A stretch of 41,421 nt of DNA from the NCBI GenBank assembly GCA_017554385.1, contig JAFZIL010000080.1:1-41421 (forward strand). Direction: 5' to 3'. The position numbers were made by a program, and so were the translations under genes. Positions within the stretch are counted from its first letter, which is position 1. Each line of letters begins with the position of its first letter. This document shows positions 29,914-41,421 of the stretch, one piece after another. The DNA comes from Prevotella sp. Lineage in GTDB: Bacteria; Bacteroidota; Bacteroidia; Bacteroidales; Bacteroidaceae. The notes under the pieces are model-generated. The model searched no databases. It had not been told where the DNA came from and saw only the letters and a list, made by a program, of their open reading frames with translations.

Positions 29914-29939
29914 AAGGAGTTATTGGCTCCCAATTCCTT
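29914..29939 (-). terminator. Hairpin overlapping the protease stop codon
   Basis: Outer AAGGA/TCCTT and inner ATTGG/CCAAT pairs form a stem with a three-base bulge, overlapping the TAA of the protease gene. No T-tract follows on the minus strand; weak candidate. Confidence 0.3.
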
Positions 29940-32900
29940 ATCGAATAACAACACGTGACGAACCGTCGCTGTAACGGTAGATGTTGATGCCACGCGATGG
30001 CAGGTTGAGTCGCACACCTCCAGCCGAGTAGATACCCTCCAATACGGGTTGCTTCGCAGCATCGGTGCCTACATGAGCAATTCCGTCAGGATGTGCTATC
30101 TCGCTGAAGGCCTCAATATCGTCCTCCGACACGAATATGTAGCGCTGGTTCTTGTCTGAGTTGCCGAATTTGAAGTTTACATTGGACAACGAACCTAAAT
30201 TAAGCGTCGGATTAAAGGTGCCCATCTGCATCGACTTATCGGTGCCGCTTGCGTTCCACGTCATCCAATAACTCTGGGCTGTGAACTTCTTGTTTGTCTC
30301 GGTATTGCTGACCACGACGTCCTGACGACCTGGTAGCAGCTGGAAGTTGCAAGCTTCGCCTCCGGTAGTAGAAAGCGAGGGCGATGTCGATGAGTGGGTG
30401 ATATACTTACCGGTAGCCGCATTGCGGAAACGGTAATAGCCTGTTTGGGGGAGGAACTCAACATACCATGCAGCAGAATCGTTCAGCTCGCTGAGTTCCG
30501 AGAGTGTGAACTTATTCCAACGCAGACCGTTGTTCTTACGTTCGAAGACGAAGCCGTCATTCAGACCGCAGTCTTCGCTCTCACTCTTGATGTAGTACTT
30601 CTTGCCATCCTCGAAGTTAAAGGTATAACCGGGCACACCATTGCTGTAGCTACCCGTAGGACAGAGACCGTCGATATAGAGTGCATAGAGCAGGGCACAG
30701 CCACCGATATACTGAATAGCGGTGTGCTTATCCTTGTCAGCTCCGTTGACAAACCAGTCATAGCTGGCATTGGTTCCCCATCCATGAACACCGTCACCGG
30801 TCATATAGACATCCATGCTATTTGTGTTCTCAAGGAAGTGCAGCGTCTTGTTGGCCCAAGCGCCCAACCACTTGCCGTGGGTAGTGTTCTCGCGCAGGTC
30901 GGCACAATTATACCAACGCCAGTGGGTACCTACGCCCACGCCATGGCCGGTCTCATGAAGAACGGTACCAATAGCCTGATAAGCAGCGTTCGGGCCTATG
31001 CGCATCCAACCGCCATAAGAGCAGTCAGCCGTAGGTGTATCGGCACCATAGTGTCCTTGAAGGGTAAAGCCCTTAATGGCAGTCCATTCGTTCAGGTAGT
31101 CCATTGTTTCCTGAATAGCCTTACGACAGCGGCTGTTTGCATCCTCGGTAGGTGCTCCTTCATTCCATGTACCTACGCAGCTGCCTTGAGGCAAAGTCAT
31201 AATCTTCATTGACTTGCCATAGCCCACGGCATAGGTATTGGTGATGCCATAAGCACGCACATAGTAGGCGGTAGCAGGTTGCATGTCCTTGATGTGGAAG
31301 ACCATGCCTTTTTGGCTATAGTAGAAGGTACAACGGTGGTCGGCAATGGTAGGCTCCGGCTCAGTACTCCAACAGAAGCCGCGCTCCTTATAGCCTGCAC
31401 CTGAGAACGTTGCACGTAGCAAGGCTCCGTGGGCACCAGGTATATAGAAAGTAGTATTAGTAGAAACCGTAGGCGTATTGCCCGAACCATTTGCAACAAG
31501 GAACAACAGCTCAGCAGTCTCCAGCGCCTCAATCTCAGCGGCAAGCTCCTCACTGGAAGCATCACCATTCTGTACCAGTACCTTGGCCTTGTCAATCTCT
31601 GCTTGGAAATCGGCAGCACCTTCCTTACTACCGTCGTAAGCCTGCTCGGCGGCATCGATGGCAGCCTGCAAGGCGGCATATTCGGCTATTGAGATGCGTG
31701 CAGCCTCGATAGCGACAGAAAGCGCCTTTGAAGCAGCTTGTATCTCCGACATGTCCGACGCGGCAGTCATCGCCTTCGCAGTAGCCAATGCCGTACTCAG
31801 GTCTGTAGCTGCCTTCGTCGACATCATGCTTTGCTGCAGTGTCTCACCCTCAGTAATGATGCGCTCTAGCTCGGCAATCACCTCATCGGCTCCTACCACA
31901 CCTATTTGATACAGGCGGAAATTGTCTACACAAAGCCAGTTGCCTGTTGCACCTTCAGCCTTGAACCCAATCTCCACTTCACCGCTAATGCAGGTGAACA
32001 CCACCGAGTAGTCAGCGGGTGTGTAGACCGTCGTCTTCTGGTCGCCGGCATAGATCCATGCACCTACACATTTCTGCGTAGTATTGTTCTGGTTCAGGTT
32101 CTGGGCAGCCACCGTCAGCTTGTACTGTCCGTTAGGCAGGCTAATGAGCTGCTTGATGCTGGCATCTCCAACCTTCTGTCCCTTGTCGACCCACTTCTCC
32201 ACATAGGTCGTTCCGGCTTTCTTGGTAAACGAAGCGTTGGTCTGGCTCTTCATGTTCTCCTGTGTCCATCCGTTAGTACCGCTGTTCTCGAACGAAGGAT
32301 TGTTAATGTACGATGTACAGTCGAGTGGGTTGTCCTCAGAGATATTCTTGTTTCTGTAGGTCTGGATAGCAGCTTTCAGCGTTTCAACACTCTGAAGAAC
32401 TGCCAACACATCAGCCTCCGCATTGTCGTAGATGGCTTGTGCTGCATCGATGGCCTGCTTCAGTTCGTCGGCTCCGACTCCGTTGCCAGAGCCATAGAAG
32501 CCGTTGGCCTCGTCGATAACCTCCTGTAGCATGGGCTTTGCATTGATGTCAGTACCCTCGATTTTCACATAGTCTATGACGAGGTTGGCCGAATTGGCCG
32601 AACCGTTATCAACAGCCTGATAGCCAATGCGCAGGTTGCCCGTCGTGGCCTTCGTCAGCTCGAACGTAATCTTATCGAGTGTCCACTCCTTTGAGGGATA
32701 GCTCTTTACAGTCGACTTGGCTGTCTGCCCGGAAGTGGGAATCCATGCCAGCATCGACGTGCCGCCCGTGACACCCTTACCATTATAAGTAGGCACGCTG
32801 ACGGTATATTTACCTGCGGGCAGGGTTATGGTCTGATGGTAGTAGAACTGCTCGCCCCAACCAGTAGAGAGGGCCAGTCCACCGCCAGCCTCACCGTCAT

Positions 32901-33168
32901 AGCCTTTGTCTGGAACTACGCCTCCATTGAAGGTGCCCTTGAAGCCAAACTCGTAGATACCCGTAATAGTATAGTTATGGGTGAAGCCTTGAGTCCATCC
33001 GTCGATAGGCTTGATTTCCTGTTTCACCTCTGCACTACTTGTAGCAGGATAGTCGAAATGGGAATCGAAGCCGTAGTTCGAAAGAAAGCAACTTGTCACG
33101 TCTGTCTGTGCGCTGGCGGGCATTATCGTCGTCAGGAGCATCAGAATAAACAATGTAGTTTTGTTCAT
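29938..33168 (-). CDS. Large secreted zinc-metalloprotease with carbohydrate-binding-like and FIVAR-like domains
   Basis: The 1076-aa protein has a signal peptide (cut after ASAQ20). In order: a jelly-roll, carbohydrate-binding-like domain (about 25-205), a helical FIVAR-like segment (210-272), a second jelly-roll (about 285-420, INNPSFENSGTNGWTQ), Ala-rich FIVAR-like helices (425-555), an Fn3-like domain (565-655), a metallopeptidase domain (about 660-840) and a ricin/lectin-like region (850-1010). It ends in a tail with GIYSAGGVRLN and GINIYRYSDGSSRVVIR, like the C-terminal sorting segments of Bacteroidales secreted proteins. The zinc site is HETGHGVGVGTH (residues 738-749). The first HExxH is normal, but the third His is one residue later than in HExxHxxGxxH metzincins. 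Likely acts on mucin or plant glycoproteins; inference. Confidence 0.82.
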   Translation of the reverse strand: MNKTTLFILMLLTTIMPASAQTDVTSCFLSNYGFDSHFDYPATSSAEVKQEIKPIDGWTQGFTHNYTITGIYEFGFKGTFNGGVVPDKGYDGEAGGGLALSTGWGEQFYYHQTITLPAGKYTVSVPTYNGKGVTGGTSMLAWIPTSGQTAKSTVKSYPSKEWTLDKITFELTKATTGNLRIGYQAVDNGSANSANLVIDYVKIEGTDINAKPMLQEVIDEANGFYGSGNGVGADELKQAIDAAQAIYDNAEADVLAVLQSVETLKAAIQTYRNKNISEDNPLDCTSYINNPSFENSGTNGWTQENMKSQTNASFTKKAGTTYVEKWVDKGQKVGDASIKQLISLPNGQYKLTVAAQNLNQNNTTQKCVGAWIYAGDQKTTVYTPADYSVVFTCISGEVEIGFKAEGATGNWLCVDNFRLYQIGVVGADEVIAELERIITEGETLQQSMMSTKAATDLSTALATAKAMTAASDMSEIQAASKALSVAIEAARISIAEYAALQAAIDAAEQAYDGSKEGAADFQAEIDKAKVLVQNGDASSEELAAEIEALETAELLFLVANGSGNTPTVSTNTTFYIPGAHGALLRATFSGAGYKERGFCWSTEPEPTIADHRCTFYYSQKGMVFHIKDMQPATAYYVRAYGITNTYAVGYGKSMKIMTLPQGSCVGTWNEGAPTEDANSRCRKAIQETMDYLNEWTAIKGFTLQGHYGADTPTADCSYGGWMRIGPNAAYQAIGTVLHETGHGVGVGTHWRWYNCADLRENTTHGKWLGAWANKTLHFLENTNSMDVYMTGDGVHGWGTNASYDWFVNGADKDKHTAIQYIGGCALLYALYIDGLCPTGSYSNGVPGYTFNFEDGKKYYIKSESEDCGLNDGFVFERKNNGLRWNKFTLSELSELNDSAAWYVEFLPQTGYYRFRNAATGKYITHSSTSPSLSTTGGEACNFQLLPGRQDVVVSNTETNKKFTAQSYWMTWNASGTDKSMQMGTFNPTLNLGSLSNVNFKFGNSDKNQRYIFVSEDDIEAFSEIAHPDGIAHVGTDAAKQPVLEGIYSAGGVRLNLPSRGINIYRYSDGSSRVVIR

Positions 33169-33261: not shown

Positions 33262-34035
33262 TTAAAGCAGACCAATACGCAAACAGAGTCCTGCAGAGAT
33301 GTATTTGGCATCCTGAAGCGAAGCCTGGATTAGCAAATAGCGCAGCAACTCGCAGTCGACGCCGAAGTTGAAGCTTTCGCCGTCGTATTCGCCAATGATT
33401 CTCAACGGTTTGTAGAAAGAAGGCTGAAAGGTCAGTCCACCGACCACACCGTCCCACTTGTGGTTGAAGTCACGCTTCCATTTCCGATAGGCAATATGGG
33501 CACCGACACGATTTCCACCAAGGTCCACATGTTTCGTTGCAGCCACAAAGAAGTTGCGATAGAAATTGCTGCCCGACTTCCCGTTGTCGCCAGTGCCCCA
33601 CACGTCATTTCCGCCTACGACTACAGCGGGCCAGTAGCGTCCTTCCTCCAATGGGCGTAGTCTTACGGTGAAATAGCGGTCTTTCGCATAAAAGCCCGAC
33701 TTCTGGTCCGGGTCAAGGTTGCGATGCAGTTTCCATAGCGTGTACCCATAGCCTAATTCTATCCATTTAAAGGGAGTAATGCTCAGGTAGTTGGTAAACG
33801 AGTTGAACTTCTCGCCATCATACTTCATGCCGTCAGGAATCATGTGGGCATCAACATAATGGGCTCCCACACGTGCCACGCCCGCCGTGTCCATTTCTGC
33901 CGTCGGAACATGGATGAGTCCCGGCGTACCCACATGTTGCTGAGCACTTGCGGTGGCAAGCGGCAAAAGAGCCATCGTTAATAGTATGGCGAACGACTTG
34001 CCCATCTTCTTTATATATGTAATCATATCTCTCAT
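33262..34035 (-). CDS. YjbH-domain exopolysaccharide-type envelope protein (N-terminal-half-like)
   Basis: The protein (257 aa from ATG 34035; 34026 or 34005 are alternative starts) has a signal peptide ending ATASAQ and then QHVGTPGLIHVPTAEMDTAG, the opening motif of YjbH/GfcD-type proteins. Next comes a beta-barrel pattern with SITPFKWIELGYGYT, DRYFTVRLRPLEEG and PAVVVGGNDVWGTG. In E. coli YjbH belongs to an exopolysaccharide secretion operon; there it is about twice this length. Here a second, different barrel protein is encoded just upstream, so the two may together correspond to one YjbH. The start codon lies in a heptamer array and is coupled to the previous gene. Confidence 0.72.
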   Translation of the reverse strand: MRDMITYIKKMGKSFAILLTMALLPLATASAQQHVGTPGLIHVPTAEMDTAGVARVGAHYVDAHMIPDGMKYDGEKFNSFTNYLSITPFKWIELGYGYTLWKLHRNLDPDQKSGFYAKDRYFTVRLRPLEEGRYWPAVVVGGNDVWGTGDNGKSGSNFYRNFFVAATKHVDLGGNRVGAHIAYRKWKRDFNHKWDGVVGGLTFQPSFYKPLRIIGEYDGESFNFGVDCELLRYLLIQASLQDAKYISAGLCLRIGLL

Positions 34036-34070
34036 CTTTCATTTCTCATCTCTCATCTCTCATCTCTCAT
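34029..34070 (-). repeat. Six heptamers across the stop/start junction of the YjbH-like pair
   Basis: Plus-strand units are CTCTCAT, CTTTCAT, TTCTCAT, CTCTCAT, CTCTCAT, CTCTCAT. The stop codon of the upstream gene (34053) and the start codon of the downstream gene (34035) are both made of repeat units, 17 bp apart. Since 7 is not a multiple of 3, unit gain or loss would change the upstream gene's C-terminus and the spacing. Confidence 0.9.
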
Positions 34071-34958
34071 CTTCCCCGTTCCCCAAGGAACACTGACAGG
34101 ATAGACGCGCTCGTTCTCCTCGGGGTCAGTGGTATACATCTTCATTGACAAGGCATCGGCCTGTGCATTGTAGGTCAGGCGGAAGTTGGATGCCGGACGC
34201 AAGGTGAGCTTACCTTTCCTCCAGCCATATTGGGGCAGCATCATGATAATCTTGAAGCCACCTGCCTCACGATAACGGCTGTTCTTACGCTGATGCAGCT
34301 GACCATAGAGACCTACGGTGCAATGGCTGAAATGACGCATCACATCAAGCTGCACACCAAGGTCTTCATTGACGTAACGTCCACCACTTAAGAAAAACTC
34401 CGTATTCCAACGATCCAGCCACAAACGGGCTCCACCAATGGCAGTAAAACAGTCGATGGCACCAAAATCTACAGCCTTGGTCTCCTCAACAGCATTTCCA
34501 TAGCGATACACGGCATCACCTGCGGCCAATCGCCAATGGCCTGTATAGCCAGCCTGAGCCTGAAGCATAAGCCAGGAGGTAAGGGGAAGCATGGCCCGCA
34601 GGTCTACACCATAACGGTCAAGTCCGAACAGACCTCCCGACAGCTTGGTATGGAAATTGCCAAGATGCAGTTGTTTTGCCAACACAGCATTGGTCAACCT
34701 AACGATATTATGCTTTGTCTCATAGCCTTCGTTAATGAGGGGGATGAATGCCTGGGCACTGAACAGGAAGTCGTTGCCCATGTGCCATTTGATGCCAGGT
34801 GTCAGGTTAAGCAGTACGTTATATAGACGCACATAGTTCACATCGGCATAGCTTAGATCGGCACCAGCAAAGACTTCAACCTGTCCGGCTTCAGCTTCCT
34901 GAGCCATTCCTGCTACGGAACAGCATGAAATGATGATGATGATGAAAAGACGTTTCAT
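34053..34958 (-). CDS. Secreted beta-barrel protein paired with the YjbH-like protein
   Basis: ATG 34958 gives 301 aa with a signal peptide (MKRLFIIIIISCCSVAGMAQ). The rest is beta-rich: VEVFAGADLSYADVNYVRLYN, LNLTPGIKWHMGNDFLFSAQAFIPL, TKLSGGLFGLDRYGVD, RLWLDRWNTEFFLSGGRY and KLTLRPASNFRLTYN. The LYNVLLNLTPG and FIPL parts recall the second half of YjbH proteins, but I cannot confirm it. The last residues (MRDER) are encoded by heptamer repeats. It heads a two-gene operon with a divergent promoter next to the fusion gene. Confidence 0.65.
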   Translation of the reverse strand: MKRLFIIIIISCCSVAGMAQEAEAGQVEVFAGADLSYADVNYVRLYNVLLNLTPGIKWHMGNDFLFSAQAFIPLINEGYETKHNIVRLTNAVLAKQLHLGNFHTKLSGGLFGLDRYGVDLRAMLPLTSWLMLQAQAGYTGHWRLAAGDAVYRYGNAVEETKAVDFGAIDCFTAIGGARLWLDRWNTEFFLSGGRYVNEDLGVQLDVMRHFSHCTVGLYGQLHQRKNSRYREAGGFKIIMMLPQYGWRKGKLTLRPASNFRLTYNAQADALSMKMYTTDPEENERVYPVSVPWGTGKMRDER

Positions 34959-34963
34959 GGGTG

Positions 34964-34994
34964 CAAAGTTACTAAAAGTCGAGTGAAATGCAAA
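34964..34994 (-). promoter_or_regulatory. Promoter for the YjbH-like pair
   Basis: Minus-strand TAACTTTG (34964-34971) with TTTG 19 bp upstream (34991-34994). The -7 box is only 5 bp from the ATG at 34958, so the mRNA would be leaderless or the ATG is slightly misplaced. Confidence 0.7.
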
Positions 34995-35023
34995 AGAAGT
35001 TACTGAATAAATATGGCTGTTGT

Positions 35024-35055
35024 TTTGCAAATTACACAAAAAAGTAGTACTTTTG
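35024..35055 (+). promoter_or_regulatory. Promoter for the fusion gene and AmpG-like gene
   Basis: TACTTTTG (35048-35055) with TTTG (35024-35027) 20 bp upstream. It gives a leader of about 22 nt to ATG 35084. Confidence 0.8.
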
Positions 35056-35083
35056 CACGGAAAATCAAGCAAACGACATACCT

Positions 35084-38000
35084 ATGAGAGAAAATATCGA
35101 CGTTTTCCTGCCTTGCGACGATATACTGGCAGCAAAACAAACCATAGCCCAGTTGGAGCGAAGCACGATGCTGCGATCGGTCACATGGATCGTCGGTAAC
35201 AATACGGCACCCGACAACCGCCCTTTTATCGTGTCCAACAACCTGACGTCGACCGACACTATCCGTCAGATAGCGGCCAACGCATCTGCCGACTATGTGC
35301 TGATGGTTACCAAACCTACGCCAGTATCCTTTGGCGATGGAGCCATTGAACGCCTTATTCATGCTGCCTCCGACAGCGATGCTGCGATGGTCTATGCCGA
35401 TCACTTCGAGAAACGCCTTGAGAACGGAAACGAAACCGTGACCCGCCATCCTGCCATTGACTATCAGACGGGGTCTATACGCGATGACTTCGACTTCGGC
35501 TCTGTGCTCCTTATCCGAGGTGACCATCTCCGTGAATGGGCCGGGAAGACCGAGACCGTCAGCTATCAGTATGCAGGTCTCTACGATCTGCGTCTCTTCC
35601 TCAGCCGTCAGGGCGAACTGCTCCATCTGAACGAATACCTATATACTGAGGTGGAAAGCGACACCCGTGCCAGCGGTGTGAAGCAGTTTGACTATGTCAA
35701 TCCTGCCAACCGCGATGTGCAAGTGGAGATGGAGCAGGTGGCAACAGCCCACCTAAAGGCTATCGGAGCTTGGATCGACACGTCAAGCCGGGAAGCGGTG
35801 GACTATGCCGAACAAGAGTTTGAATACGAAGCCTCAGTCATCATTCCCGTGTTCAACCGTGCCAAGACCATCGAGGATGCCGTCAGCAGTGCGCTCTCGC
35901 AGAAGACCGATTTCAAGTTCAACGTCATTGTGGTCGACAACCACTCTACCGACGGAACAGGCGAGATACTCAAGCGTATTGAGAACCCAAAACTTATCGT
36001 TCTCACTCCCAAACGCACCGATCTGGGTATTGGCGGCTGCTGGAACATGGCGGTGAACGACTGCCGTTGCGGACGCTTTGCCGTACAGCTTGACAGCGAC
36101 GACCTTTACTCCTCGCCACAGACCCTACAACGCATCGTCAACGCTTTCTACGAGCAGCAGGCAGCAATGGTGATAGGCTCCTACCGTATGTGCGACTTCG
36201 AGCTGAACACGCTTCCTCCAGGACTGATTGCCCATAAGGAATGGACTGACGAGAACGGTCCAAACAACGCGCTGCGCATCAACGGTCTTGGTGCACCGAG
36301 AGCTTTCTTTACGCCCTTGCTACGCCAGGTGCAACTGCCGAACACAAGCTATGGCGAGGACTACGCCATGGGGCTCTGGTTCTCGCGCTACTTCCGCATA
36401 GGGCGCATCTACGACGAGCTCTATCTCTGCCGACGCTGGGGAGGCAACAGCGACGCTGCACTATCCGTGGAACGGGTCAATGCGAACAACCTATACAAAG
36501 ACAGACTGCGTACTATGGAAATCAAGGCAAGGCAGCGACTGACCACCGCTGACACAGGCCTGTCGCCACTGAAACGTTACTTTGACCGCCAGCTGAGGCT
36601 TTGGCCGGAAGTGATGACGCGCTACCGTGAGCTGAACAGCATTGAGACCCGTCAACTGCCTCTTGAGGTAATGACACTGAAAGCACAGTTCAATCCTGCC
36701 CGCATACGGTCAACCGGTGCTACCATCACCAAAGAGGCCATCGGCGAGAGGCCATGCTTCCTCTGCGAACAGAACAGACCGAAGGAGCAGATGCACAAGG
36801 TACAGGACGGACGTTTCGAGCTACTGGTCAATCCCTACCCTATCCTTCCGATGCACTTCACGCTGCCTCTGCGCCGACACCAGCCACAGCTCATACGAAG
36901 CATGTATGGCGAGATGCTCCATCTGTTGCGCCTATATCCTGAACTGACGGTGTTCTACAATGGTCCGCTATGCGGAGCCTCGGCTCCCGACCATGCACAC
37001 CTGCAGGCCGGCACGAGCGGTATGCTGCCGTTGCAGACGGAATGGAACAGGTTGGCACGCAGCATCAACGTTATCGTGGAGCAAGGCGACGAGGCTACCA
37101 TCGGCATCATCGAACAGCTGCCTTGGCCAGCCTTTGCCATCCGTTCCAAGAGCAAGACCATGGGCGAGCGCCTGTTCCGCGAGGTCTACGACGCGCTTCC
37201 CATAGCCGACGGCAATACCGAGCCCATGATGAACATCGTGGCATGGCGGCAGGGCGGCCAGCTCATCTCCGTAGTGATGCCTCGTGCCAAACATCGTCCC
37301 GACTGCTATTTCAAGGATGGAGAGCAACAACTGCTCGTCAGCCCCGGTGCCCTCGACATGGCCGGAATGCTTATCATGCCTCGCCGCGAAGACTTCGATC
37401 GTATCACACCCCAACAGGCACTTGCCGTATTACAGGAGTGTGCACTACCTGCCGACATATTCCAGACAGTGGTGGAACGCATCAGCAAGAACGACAAGAA
37501 AGGCATTCTTGACGCGGCTCGCGAACAGAAAGAACCCATCGTCACCGTGGGCATCGTCGATGGACAGAAGATCAACTTCGTACTGAATGCTCCTTTCATA
37601 GCCAAAGGCGAGGTGATTCAAGGCGAGCAGGAGGTGGAACTGGCCGACGGAGCCATCCTCTGGCACGGCCAGCAATACCGCGAACTGCTCTTCACTCCCC
37701 AAGAGCCACAGGCTTCGTTCTCGCTGCGCGACGTCACCATCGGTGTGAACTTCCACTGGGAGCGACAGGAGACGCAGACGTTCCGCGGAAAGCTGTGCCT
37801 CAGGGTAGAAGCCGACAGCATCTGGGCCATCAACGAGCTCGAAGTGGAGTCATACCTGGAAAGCGTGATATCAAGCGAGATGAGTGCCACGTCGTCGTTA
37901 GAACTGCTGAAGGCCCATGCCGTCATATCGCGTTCATGGCTATTGTCCCAGCTGGAACGACGAAACAAGGAGAAAGACTCCAAGGACAACAGTTTCTTCT

Positions 38001-38746
38001 CGTTTATCAAGAAAGACGACGAGCTGCTGCGGTGGCACGGACGCGAGGACCACACACTTTTCGACGTCTGTGCCGACGACCATTGCCAGCGCTATCAGGG
38101 TATCACCAGGGCATCGAACCCGCTGGTTGCCAAAGCTATAGCTTCCACGCGCGGACAGGTGCTCTGCTACGACAACGAGCTGTGCGACACCCGATTCTCC
38201 AAGTGCTGCGGCGGTCTGACGGAGGAGTACCAGTATTGCTGGGAAGACACTCCCAAGCCCTATCTCGTATCCGTGGCCGACCCCTTCTGCAACACCCACG
38301 ACCCCAGAATCCTGAAGCAGGTACTCAACGACTACGATCAGGAGACGCCCGACTTCTACCGCTGGAAGGTCTGCTACTCGCAGGCTGAACTCTCGGAACT
38401 TATCGAGCGTAAGCTTCATCTGGGTCTCGGCACCATCGAGGACCTTGTCCCGTTAGAGCGAGGGAAGAGCGGCCGAATATGGCGGCTCCAGCTGGTCGGA
38501 TCGGAACGCAGCTTCATTATCGGCAAAGAGCTGGAGATCCGACGTGCGCTCAGTGAGACCCATCTCTACAGTTCGGCATTCGACGTGGAGCGTAAAGACG
38601 ACGTGTTCGTTCTCAAAGGAAAGGGCTGGGGCCACGGTGTAGGCCTGTGCCAGATTGGCGCCGCAGTGATGGGCGAGCGTGGATACCAGTACGACGAGAT
38701 ACTCTTATATTATTATAAAGGTGCAGAAATCAAGAAAATCTATTAG
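35084..38746 (+). CDS. Four-part fusion: GT-A-like, GT2, DUF4922/HIT-like and SpoIID/LytB domains
   Basis: The 1220-aa protein has no signal peptide or membrane segment, so it should be cytoplasmic. Residues 1-240 look like a degenerate GT-A domain ([27 protein letters not shown]). Residues 248-480 are a GT2 domain: [31 protein letters not shown] and the DxD-type QLDSDD (D337-D340). Residues 520-790 contain CFLCEQNRP (C558, C561), [14 protein letters not shown] and HAHLQAG (H637, H639, Q641), an HxHxQ motif of HIT-type nucleotidyltransferases or hydrolases (DUF4922). Residues 815-1220 are SpoIID/Lyt[21 protein letters not shown] with the probable catalytic E932, and [13 protein letters not shown] (1181-1193) near the end. 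SpoIID proteins act on denuded glycan strands outside the cytoplasm, so a soluble form is unusual. The AmpG-like gene follows 3 bp later. Confidence 0.85.
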
Positions 38747-38749
38747 TCT

Positions 38750-40126
38750 ATGAGCGAAACAAATACCGGTTGGCAACACTACAGGAAGTCGCCCTGGAGT
38801 TGGATTCCCACACTCTACGTTGCCGAGGGACTGCCCAACGTGATTGTGATGACAGTGGCAGTGGTGATGTATATGCAGCTGGGGATGAGCGATACCGACA
38901 TTGCGCTGTATACCAGTTGGCTGGGTCTCCCTTGGGTCATCAAACCCTTCTGGAGCCCCTTCGTCGACCTCTACAAGACCAAGCGCTGGTGGGTACTTGC
39001 CATGCAGGCTCTGTTGGGCTCTTCGCTCGCAGGCGTGGCCTTTACGCTGAACGCCTCGTTCTGGTTCCAGGGAACGATGGCCTTCTTCTTCCTCATGGCG
39101 TTCTCCAGCGCCACCCACGACATTGCTGCCGACGGCTACTACATGCTCGAGCTCGACGAACACCAGCAGGCTTGGTTTGTAGGCATCCGCAACACGTTCT
39201 ACCGGCTCGCCGTCATCTTCGGCAATGGCGTGCTCATACCACTGGCAGGCATGCTCCAGTTGGTCTTCCGTAACGAGCTGGCCTTCACGTGGAGCATCGT
39301 GTTCTACGGACTTGCCGGACTCTTTCTGGCCGTCTGGCTCTATCATGCCTACATCATGCCGAACAGTGAGAAAGGGAATGAAGAGTGTGGAGCGGAGAAT
39401 GTAGAGTTTGCTACCGCCCCACAGGACAATACCAGTAATGCGGTAGCAAACTCTAAACTCTACACTCTAAACTCTCAATTGAAAGAGGCTCTCCAAAGCT
39501 TCTTCACCAAGTTCCCGCTTCGTGAGACGGTCTTCGCCATGCTGTTCCTTCTGTTCTACAGGTTTCCGGAGGCGTTGCTTACTAAGATGTGTGCAACGTT
39601 CCTCATGCGTCCGGGTTCTGAGGGAGGACTTGGCCTTTCGCCACAGGAGTTCGGACTTGCCAGCGGCACTGTAGGCCTCATCGGACTTACGCTTGGCGGA
39701 ATCCTCGGAGGCATCCTTGCCAGCCGCGACGGACTGAAACGCTGGCTGTGGCCCATGGTGTGCGCCATCACCCTGCCCGACATTGTCTATGTCTACATGA
39801 GCTTTGCCATGCCCTCGAACCTGTGGCTCATCAGCCTCTGCCTGTTCATCGAGCAGTTTGGCTACGGGCTTGGCTTCACCGCGCTCACACTCTACATGCT
39901 CTATTTCTCTATGGGTCAGTTCAAGACATCGCACTATGCCATCTGCACCGGCATATCCTATCTGGGACTGATGCTCCCCGGCATGCTGTCGGGCTACATG
40001 AAGGACTCTATGGGCTATCGTTCCTTCTTCCTTGTCGTCATGGGCCTGTGTGTCATCACCTTTGCCGTAGCCGCCTTCGTCCGTATAGATCCTGAGTTCG
40101 GGAAGAAGAAGAAAGGCAACAACTGA
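38750..40126 (+). CDS. AmpG-like MFS permease with an in-frame loop insert
   Basis: The 458-aa membrane protein begins YRKSPWSWIPTLYVAEGLPN and continues with WLGLPWVIKPFWSPFVDLY and SSATHDIAADGYYM, the signature of the AmpG/SLC33-type family. AmpG imports anhydromuropeptides released in wall turnover. About 12 hydrophobic segments are visible. Between helices 6 and 7 an acidic/Ser/Asn-rich loop (residues 205-244, NSEKGNEEC to LNSQL) is encoded by an inverted-repeat element flanked by heptamers. Start ATG 38750 is 3 bp after the fusion gene's stop, so translation is probably coupled. Another sugar or acyl-CoA substrate is possible. Confidence 0.82.
   Translation: MSETNTGWQHYRKSPWSWIPTLYVAEGLPNVIVMTVAVVMYMQLGMSDTDIALYTSWLGLPWVIKPFWSPFVDLYKTKRWWVLAMQALLGSSLAGVAFTLNASFWFQGTMAFFFLMAFSSATHDIAADGYYMLELDEHQQAWFVGIRNTFYRLAVIFGNGVLIPLAGMLQLVFRNELAFTWSIVFYGLAGLFLAVWLYHAYIMPNSEKGNEECGAENVEFATAPQDNTSNAVANSKLYTLNSQLKEALQSFFTKFPLRETVFAMLFLLFYRFPEALLTKMCATFLMRPGSEGGLGLSPQEFGLASGTVGLIGLTLGGILGGILASRDGLKRWLWPMVCAITLPDIVYVYMSFAMPSNLWLISLCLFIEQFGYGLGFTALTLYMLYFSMGQFKTSHYAICTGISYLGLMLPGMLSGYMKDSMGYRSFFLVVMGLCVITFAVAAFVRIDPEFGKKKKGNN
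39362..39482 (+). repeat. Inverted repeat with heptamer arms inserted in the AmpG-like gene
   Basis: GAGTTTGCTACCGC (39404-39417) and GCGGTAGCAAACTC (39440-39453) are perfect 14-bp inverted repeats around a 22-base loop. Outside, the left arm (units like GAAGAGT, GTGGAGC, GGAGAAT) and right arm (TAAACTC, TACACTC, TAAACTC) are heptamer runs that remain partly complementary (16 of 24 positions by eye). The whole is in frame and lies in the central loop. No transposase and no clear target duplication. Confidence 0.85.
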
Positions 40127-40130
40127 CGCC

Positions 40131-41039
40131 TCAGATTCCGAGACCTCCTTGGAACGAAACGTCGACAGCCTTGCTCTGCAGAATGCGTGAGTGAGGCGGT
40201 ACGTCGTGAGTGAGCCAGATGTTACCACCAATGACCGAGTCGTGGCCTATGCGTATACGTCCGAGAATGGAAGCGTTGGAGTAGACCGTCACATTGTCCT
40301 CCAGAATGGGATGGCGCGGCACGTTGAGCATATTGCCGTCGGCATCGTACTTGAAGTTCTTTGCACCGAGCGTCACGCCCTGATACAGCGTCACGTGGGA
40401 ACCAATGACCGACGTCTCGCCGATGACTACGCCCGTACCGTGGTCAATGGCAAAATACTCGCCAATCTGCGCCCCGGGATGAATGTCGATACCCGTCTTC
40501 GAGTGGGCCTGCTCCGTGATGATACGGGGAATCACAGGAACCCTCATCTTGTGTAACGCATGCGCAATACGGTAGTGGGTCATCGTGTTCACCACCGGAT
40601 AGCAGTAGATCACCTCGCCATAGTTCGTGGCAGCAGGGTCGTTCTGGAACATCGCCTCCACATCCGTATATATCAGCCGCTTGATCTCGGGCAGCTCGTC
40701 AATAAACTGTAGGGCAAGACATTCAGCTGACGAGAGCACGTCGGACTCGGCACAGTCCTCGCAGAACTGCAACCCGCGTGCTATCTGCCTGCGGAGCACA
40801 GTATAGAGCTCCTCCACATAAACGCCAATGTAATAGGAACGTATCTGCTCGTCGGGCTGACGCTTATAGAAATAATCGGTAAAGATAATGCTCTTTGCCA
40901 AGGTGATAATGCGTCGCACCTCGTCTACTTCAGGCAGCGGTGACGAACCTTTTGGCATCATCGCTCCCTCGCGCTCCGCTTGTTTTGAGAGCTTCTCAAC
41001 GTTGCGAAGCAACACTTCGTTGATATGTCTTTTCTCCAT
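40131..41039 (-). CDS. cysE: Serine O-acetyltransferase
   Basis: ATG 41039 (MEKRHINEVLLRNVEKLSKQ) gives 302 aa; the longer frame upstream runs into leader sequence. The N-terminal half is helical. The C-terminal left-handed beta helix has the hexapeptide repeats GIDIHPGAQIGEYFAIDHGTG (written with usual breaks), VVIGETSVIGSHVTLYQGVTLGA and, near the end, IGHDSVIGGNIWLTHDVPPHS. The catalytic His is in IDIHPGA/AIDHGTG. The enzyme makes O-acetylserine for cysteine synthesis. It ends 4 bp from the convergent AmpG-like gene. Confidence 0.93.
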   Translation of the reverse strand: MEKRHINEVLLRNVEKLSKQAEREGAMMPKGSSPLPEVDEVRRIITLAKSIIFTDYFYKRQPDEQIRSYYIGVYVEELYTVLRRQIARGLQFCEDCAESDVLSSAECLALQFIDELPEIKRLIYTDVEAMFQNDPAATNYGEVIYCYPVVNTMTHYRIAHALHKMRVPVIPRIITEQAHSKTGIDIHPGAQIGEYFAIDHGTGVVIGETSVIGSHVTLYQGVTLGAKNFKYDADGNMLNVPRHPILEDNVTVYSNASILGRIRIGHDSVIGGNIWLTHDVPPHSRILQSKAVDVSFQGGLGI

Positions 41040-41069
41040 GATTCTAATCCAGTTTAAGCTTTCTGCGTG

Positions 41070-41077
41070 CAAAGGTA
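41070..41077 (-). promoter_or_regulatory. Proximal -7 box for cysE
   Basis: TACCTTTG on the minus strand, about 30 bp before ATG 41039. The -33 region is not clear. Confidence 0.6.
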
Positions 41078-41156
41078 GGAAATATTTGTGAACTACGTGG
41101 CATGAACGACCAACTTTTTCGCATTCATGGCAATCTGTATGGCGTAAAAAGACCCC

Positions 41157-41201
41157 CAGGGACAGGCAAAATGACACGCCGTATCAAAGAGTCTGTCCCT
41201 G
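41157..41201 (-). promoter_or_regulatory. Nine-bp inverted repeat in the cysE leader
   Basis: CAGGGACAG and CTGTCCCTG are perfect inverted repeats with a 27-base loop, between the two candidate cysE promoters. It could be a leader RNA hairpin or a protein-binding site. It does not fit a riboswitch I recognise. Confidence 0.5.
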
Positions 41202-41229
41202 CTATACTTGTACTTCGTCATACAAAGTG

Positions 41230-41237
41230 CAAAAGTA
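41230..41237 (-). promoter_or_regulatory. Distal -7 box upstream of cysE
   Basis: TACTTTTG on the minus strand about 190 bp before ATG 41039. If used, it gives a long leader containing the inverted repeat at 41157-41201. Confidence 0.5.
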
Positions 41238-41262
41238 CGCCAGCCGCCCCACATGAATTCAT

Positions 41263-41300
41263 TTTCCCACTTTCCCGCTTTCCCACTTTTGACATTTGAC
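41263..41300. repeat. 8-bp tandem repeats upstream of cysE
   Basis: TTTCCCAC, TTTCCCGC and TTTCCCAC are consecutive, followed by degenerate copies to about 41300. The sequence from 41330 to the window end is AT-rich and gene-free. Confidence 0.65.
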
Positions 41301-41421
41301 TTTGTCGTGGATTAGCTGTTGGTGGGTTAGGAAGGGTCTATAAGGGGAAGTAGTAGATAATAGGTAATAATGATCCTATTAATATTTTAGATATATTATA
41401 TAGAATATAATATATATATAA

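Follow-up and report, generated by a model that had tools for sequence, protein, structure and literature searches.

A SpoIID clade without export signals, fused to glycosyltransferase and DUF4922 domains in Prevotella, as a candidate component of peptidoglycan recycling

The window analysed here is a 41,421-nt stretch of Prevotella sp. DNA (GenBank assembly GCA_017554385.1, contig JAFZIL010000080.1, positions 1 to 41,421, forward strand). It contains a long open reading frame (ORF) in which four domains are joined, followed by a gene for an AmpG-like permease (Table 1). The modules were labelled A (tandem GT-A), B (DUF4922), and C (SpoIID). The first-pass annotation had described two GT-A-like domains, a DUF4922 domain and a SpoIID/LytB domain in one ORF without a signal peptide. 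This arrangement was confirmed by domain search and hydropathy; neither a signal peptide nor a membrane segment was detected in the fusion protein by hydropathy. Phylogenetic and genomic analyses suggest that C belongs to a non-exported SpoIID clade, which tracks AmpG and is complementary in its occurrence to AnmK, the 1,6-anhydro-N-acetylmuramic acid (anhMurNAc) kinase. This clade is a candidate gene for the genomes that lack AnmK.

Table 1. Coordinates of the fusion ORF, its domains and motifs, and the downstream permease gene in the window (aa, amino acids)
Feature	Position	Strand	Details
Four-domain fusion ORF A-B-C	35084..38746	+	1220 aa; signal peptide absent by hydropathy
A domain 1, GT-A-like fold	35084..35803	+	aa 1-240; AF2 model, K4 chondroitin polymerase (K4CP) match, 22-row alignment
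A domain 2, GT2 glycosyltransferase	35828..36547	+	aa 249-488; Pfam PF00535, structure matches
B, DUF4922, GalT/Ap4A-phosphorylase-like HIT-superfamily domain	36563..37513	+	aa 494-810
H637-x-H639-x-Q641 motif of B	36992..37006	+	invariant in 21/21 aligned
C, SpoIID/LytB domain of non-exported clade	37526..38743	+	aa 815-1220; TIGR02669, tree
Glu932 of C	37877..37879	+	aligns with SEM glutamate of SpoIID 4rwr
Cys/His motif of C, H990...C996-ADD-H1000-C1001	38051..38086	+	resembles C-x4-H-C of SpoIID 5i1t
C-terminal motif of C	38624..38653	+	aa 1181-1190; row alignments
AmpG-like MFS permease	38750..40126	+	begins 3 nt after fusion stop codon; TIGR00901

The second domain of A matched PF00535 with 81.5 bits (cut-off 23.3), and its DSDD (aa 337-340) and ED (aa 425-426) residues were invariant in 22/22 aligned sequences. 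A residue check of the first domain in the alignment of 22 found no DxD motif, and this domain had no Pfam match; it is probably non-catalytic. The two glycosyltransferases of the first-pass annotation are therefore probably one: the GT2 assignment of domain 2 held, while domain 1 lacks the DxD. Module B matched DUF4922 (PF16269) with 201.5 bits (cut-off 23.6) and has an Ap4A-phosphorylase fold, whereas its match to Pfam ATP_transf, 14.8 bits, was below the cut-off of 23.5. Module C exceeded the curated cut-offs of PF08486 (82.4 bits; cut-off 23) and TIGR02669 (176.2 bits; cut-off 83.3), but not the equivalog cut-off of stage II sporulation protein D, TIGR02870 (140.5 vs 234.75 bits). Position 932 was Glu in 139 of 140 C-type rows, with a gap in the other one. 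His990, Cys996, His1000, and Cys1001 were invariant in 23/23 rows selected by BLAST, and His990 was also found in 140/140 C-type rows; the 140-row counts for the other three residues are circular, as the rows were chosen by that motif. The Cys/His motif may have a zinc role. The GWGHGVG residues were invariant in 23/23 aligned rows. Conservation of the SpoIID Glu and of the His-x-His-x-Gln motif suggests that C and B are not dead domains, and C is likely to be catalytic. AnmK (PF03702) was not among the 10 Pfam families matching the fusion protein at E up to 1. The downstream permease matched TIGR00901 (E=9.8e-48) with 162.8 bits, short of the curated 350-bit cut-off.

Hydropathy was measured as the best 11-residue value within the first 60 residues, with a threshold of 2.0. 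The set of 56 stand-alone C-type proteins includes an identical pair and one truncated member; 54/56 fell below this threshold, compared with 0/17 other SpoIID proteins. The two exceptions had values of 2.08 and 2.09, the latter in a protein with a longer start than its near-twin. The 17 other SpoIID proteins all reached at least 2.15, and most have clear signal or lipoprotein leaders. In the phylogenetic tree, the 57 C-type rows, including that of the window, were on one side of a branch with 100/99 support; nine rows of the other kind were on long branches. Five additional C-type genes gave values of 0.78-1.24. Eight additional genes of the other kind were also examined: five gave at least 2.35, one with a long start (L258) gave 1.09, and the remaining two yielded no row. 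In the alignment, most stand-alone C rows begin near MxEPxVxVGI. Taken with the gene context, these results suggest that the fusion protein is very probably cytosolic and involved in the recycling of peptidoglycan fragments.

Fused and stand-alone forms of the modules were both found, and signal peptides are absent from the stand-alone C proteins too. The A profile found 589 loci, of which the best 80, all named, were compared; their records were titled Prevotella, Prevotellaceae, and close genera, with one each of Bacteroidaceae, Bacteroidales, and 'uncultured bacterium'. A-B-C formed one whole ORF in 69/80 of these named loci, was cut by a contig edge in 4, and was spread over two or more ORFs in 7. 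An AmpG-like gene was present at 71/80. Another 40 stretches, mostly from other families of the order of the window (Bacteroidales), were compared using a crude gene caller. In these stretches A, B, and C, in this order, were often separate consecutive genes followed by ampG; A-B, B-C or A-B-C fusions also occurred, and C or A was sometimes located elsewhere. Outside the order, C was found without A or B in 11/19 stretches, and with A or B in 8/19. The idea that the fusion is the key novelty was rejected, given how common the split and partly fused forms are. An A-B-C-ampG gene set is packaged in several ways, of which the fusion is one, and in the rest of the order its genes often stand apart. 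What is new is therefore the non-exported SpoIID clade rather than the joining of the domains. In a Prevotella disiens record, the C gene (L169:12436-13688) is split into overlapping ORFs of 209 and 226 aa.

The distribution of C was examined in 295 genomes of the order, and genomes holding a C-type SpoIID were scored as C-positive. C was found in 79/295, with profile E values of about 7e-79 or below; the genome ranked next was at 8e-16. With a threshold of E 1e-21 or better, under which ten genomes with weaker matches were scored as lacking the gene, an AmpG-like gene was present in 79/79 C-positive and 28/216 C-negative genomes. At the same threshold outside the order, it was present in 33/33 C-positive and 9/31 C-negative genomes. 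The curated TIGR00901 cut-off was reached by 0/295 genomes of the order and by none outside it, so paralogues may be included in these counts. Module B was found in 76/79 C-positive genomes and in no C-negative genome of the order, a weak match in G190 (3.1e-5) being dropped. The AmpG-like proteins of many order loci (L063, L065, L066, L067, L069, and others) are about 600-630 aa long. The match of the AmpG model to these proteins is broken in two near model position 165, which suggests a long insertion.

AnmK was present in 194/295 genomes of the order and absent from 101/295. It was found in 12/79 C-positive and 182/216 C-negative genomes (Fisher p=2.6e-28, not corrected for descent). Counted by family (n=109), 20 had only C, 71 only AnmK, 11 both, and 7 neither. 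Outside the order, a phylum sample of 247 included 67 genomes with a SpoIID match and 177 without. All 33 C-type genomes (each confirmed by BLAST) and 31/34 others were tested; of these 31, BLAST identified 14 as the other kind, and the rest were classed by a shorter Pfam span; 20 of the genomes without a SpoIID match were tested too. AnmK was found in 14/33 C-positive genomes (one match being a 77-position fragment at a contig edge), in 31/31 genomes with other SpoIID proteins, and in 20/20 without SpoIID (14/33 vs 51/51, p=2.5e-10). Among these 84 genomes, AnmK was missing only where C was present. In one family (f128), AnmK was absent from 11/16 C-positive genomes and kept in 5. No AnmK match was found in the genome of the window, which is 81% complete.

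Other recycling genes were also found near C. The 33 of 40 order stretches holding C contained NamZ in 13, a BadF-type kinase in 16, and MurQ in 12. Scanned kinase members from L067 and L063 matched Pfam PF01869; a gene scanned from L076, which may or may not be the BadF-type BLAST hit, had no Pfam match. MurQ (E 1e-48 or better) was found in 47/79 C-positive and 25/216 C-negative order genomes, a positive but loose partnership with C. The genome of the window has a MurQ domain elsewhere. The proposal of a cytoplasmic glycan-processing machine is partly supported: the lack of a signal peptide, the AmpG-like neighbour, and the recycling genes around C in other families give good sequence support for such a role, while the fusion itself is not the key feature. 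Outside the order, the stretches around C held a GT4 gene in 9/19 cases, often next to C (L231, L232, L235, L239, L240, L242, L244, L245, and L250). A separate observation concerns G000:C4 (L251:1858-4629, plus strand), where a 924-aa ORF combines a sensor histidine kinase (HAMP, HisKA, HATPase, and a weak Cache match) with a MurQ-like N-acetylmuramic acid (MurNAc)-6-phosphate etherase domain (TIGR00274, 321.9 bits; cut-off 302). A kinase joined physically to a cell-wall-sugar enzyme looks unusual.

These observations can be combined into a possible mechanism. AmpG would import N-acetylglucosamine (GlcNAc)-anhMurNAc, with or without peptide, into the cytoplasm. This disaccharide is the normal product of lytic transglycosylases, and SpoIID relatives make such anhydro ends. 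C might bind it and run the lytic transglycosylase chemistry backwards, with Glu932 helping water or a sugar acceptor to open the 1,6-anhydro bridge and give GlcNAc-MurNAc. A forward lytic transglycosylase reaction on the imported disaccharide was rejected, as the molecule has no MurNAc-GlcNAc bond. The MurNAc could then pass to a MurK-type kinase and the MurQ etherase, or to AmgK/MurU, while the GT2 and Ap4A-phosphorylase-like domains might handle the GlcNAc/nucleotide side of the same salvage. AnmK would be replaced by C through unrelated chemistry. Replacement of AnmK by C through opening of the 1,6-anhydro ring is given an about even chance. Ring opening by C would make AnmK dispensable, and would explain both the AmpG-like gene in all of the sampled C-positive genomes and the frequent loss of AnmK.

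With denuded glycan as substrate, the products of a SpoIID relative are mainly non-anhydro, so this enzyme can use water (PMC6635528). Tannerella forsythia grows on GlcNAc-anhMurNAc, a substrate of its own AmpG, which is functional and 27% identical to that of E. coli; growth on free anhMurNAc is restricted, AnmK is predicted to be absent, and the further path of anhMurNAc was left to be explored by the authors (PMC7670621). Porphyromonas gingivalis is also reported without AnmK (PMC7670621). Ring opening by C would explain why T. forsythia can be fed by the disaccharide but hardly by free anhMurNAc.

Several points weigh against this interpretation. Because 12 C-positive genomes within the order and 14 beyond it retain AnmK, C is no strict substitute for it; 34/295 order genomes have neither gene. 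Common descent confounds the co-occurrence, although the pattern recurs outside the order. The C gene of one AnmK-less C-positive genome (G521, f128) contains an in-frame TAG. MurQ is absent from 32/79 C-positive order genomes. Seven recycling queries, two of them NagX-like, gave no match in the 78 named loci with C, where many stretches are short. Outside the order, AmpG was in 6/19 stretches, while the GT4 gene was in 9/19. The localisation is argued from hydropathy and gene context, and 7/64 fused relatives reach 2.0, some on ORF starts upstream of the aligned one. The solved relatives found for C were three SpoIID chains only. Extracts of T. forsythia show lytic transglycosylase and muramidase activities lacking gene assignment (PMC7670621), so another route to MurNAc is possible. 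Ring opening also does not explain A and B, the C-positive genomes that keep AnmK, the genomes without both, or the GT4 neighbour.

Alternatively, C may be a cytosolic muramidase or lytic transglycosylase which trims imported oligosaccharides longer than the disaccharide, with AnmK lost as a side effect of a periplasmic NamZ/NagZ/MurT route supplying plain MurNAc. This explanation appears unlikely. The disaccharides carried by AmpG hold no MurNAc-GlcNAc bond to cut, and growth on GlcNAc-anhMurNAc without AnmK would still require ring opening, although NamZ does occur in 13/33 order loci with C. Denuded glycan is cut by SpoIID relatives (PMC6635528), and T. forsythia AmpG imports GlcNAc-MurNAc besides GlcNAc-anhMurNAc; however, such disaccharides are its reported main substrates (PMC7670621).

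It is also conceivable, but quite improbable, that A-B-C builds a cytosolic glycan or glycoconjugate (e.g. a surface glycan precursor) which C edits or releases, the link to AmpG being incidental. The GT2 domain with intact DSDD and ED, the K4CP-like tandem fold of A, and the GT4 gene in 9/19 stretches outside the order would fit this. However, the AmpG-like gene accompanies C in 79/79 and 33/33 genomes, peptidoglycan-sugar genes surround C in many order loci, and no flippase or polymerase was found among the selected neighbours scanned, which were a part of all neighbours. Allosteric control of A or B by a fused, non-catalytic muropeptide-binding module C would suit the fusion, yet the conservation of Glu932 (139/140, 1 gap), His990 (140/140), and GWGHGVG (23/23), together with C occurring without A or B in 11/19 stretches outside the order, makes this very doubtful. 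Export without a classical signal, to a periplasmic location like that of other SpoIID proteins, might be read from the hydrophobic N-terminal stretch of 7/64 fused relatives (some on over-long starts), but is extremely unlikely, as stand-alone C proteins start right at the conserved domain, signal or lipoprotein leaders are present on the SpoIID paralogues that some of these genomes also encode, and the GT2 and DUF4922 domains are of classes using nucleotide substrates.

An extension of the ring-opening mechanism can be imagined in which the single chain performs a phosphorolytic salvage bypassing both AnmK and NagZ. After ring opening by C, the GT2 domain acting in reverse would convert GlcNAc-MurNAc and UDP into UDP-GlcNAc and MurNAc, and B would convert UDP-GlcNAc and phosphate into GlcNAc-1-P and UDP, so that UDP would be regenerated and the energy of the glycosidic bond saved. 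This is a speculative idea with a low probability. NagZ model matches of E 1e-28 or better in frames of at most 450 aa were found in 0/34 C-positive and 4/34 C-negative genomes, which is consistent with the phosphorolytic scheme but is not proof. The genome of the window (81% complete) had only weak NagZ matches, the best being 6.2e-5. In both groups, most genomes have strong NagZ model matches in frames about 1000 aa long; we take these to be GH3/beta-lactamase fusions like those of L234 and L248. The family cut-off was reached by 0/68 genomes, and NagZ as a means to separate the two groups was set aside as uninformative.

Some further observations concern the surroundings of the fusion. A promoter and terminator scan of 34900-41421 found sites no more frequently than in shuffled sequences, and a tRNA scan found none. 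Two adjoining genes divergent from the fusion (33262-35072, minus strand) matched YjbH, one with E=4.5e-15 and the other only weakly (E=0.14). NCBIfam rows far below cut-off resemble chance leader-peptide matches; among them is a toxin-subunit model matched by the gene at 34056-35072 (15.3 bits; cut-off 204.5). The gene at 29938-33168 (minus strand) encodes a protein of 1076 aa that looks secreted, matches DUF5013, and has a HETGHGVGVGTHW metallopeptidase-like motif.

If the proposed function of C is true, a SpoIID-type enzyme would work inside the cell, possibly in the ring-opening direction, and the DUF4922 proteins of these bacteria would gain a functional frame. The growth of T. forsythia on the disaccharide without AnmK is a published gap (PMC7670621), which C would then fill. 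Cell-wall recycling has a bearing on how bacteria grow on scavenged wall sugars, on the beta-lactam responses of some bacteria, and on the release of immune-active fragments. Among the papers listed in a literature search, with most subscription papers outside its scope, and in the parts of the articles covered, there was no report of a cytoplasmic SpoIID in recycling; the papers listed for DUF4922 were on plant GGP.

A close known arrangement is the T. forsythia operon Tanf_08345-08385, which encodes a xanthan lyase, gtf, gtf, lytB (amidase enhancer precursor), ampG, ybbC, and murTKQ (PMC5388701). It resembles the A-B-C-ampG set in having two gtf genes, lytB, ampG, and ybbC, followed by MurNAc genes (PMC5388701), and Tanf_08360 may correspond to C, judging from gene order and name. 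The genes are separate in T. forsythia, whereas the window has A, B, and C in a single chain, with no NamZ, MurQ, or kinase gene next to it. In the available parts of the accounts of this operon, no role is given for lytB (PMC5388701, PMC7670621). Module A is similar to K4CP (2z86/2z87) in having two tandem GT-A domains, and the structure match spans both; however, domain 1 of A lacks DxD, and the domain placement differs (root-mean-square deviation 21). Module B can be compared with the yeast Ap4A phosphorylase Apa2 (4i5t) and with the GalT/ADP-glucose phosphorylase branch, although its ATP_transf match is below cut-off. Module C is homologous to the SpoIID lytic transglycosylases (4rwr, 5i1t, 5txu) and shares their Glu, Cys/His, and GHGVG motifs. 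Unlike these enzymes, it has no signal peptide, forms its own clade, is joined or linked to GT and DUF4922 modules, and lies beside AmpG. AnmK and C are unrelated proteins, and no phosphorylation is proposed for C; the step proposed for C is that of AnmK, the cytosolic opening of the 1,6-anhydro ring, and their genomic occurrence is complementary.

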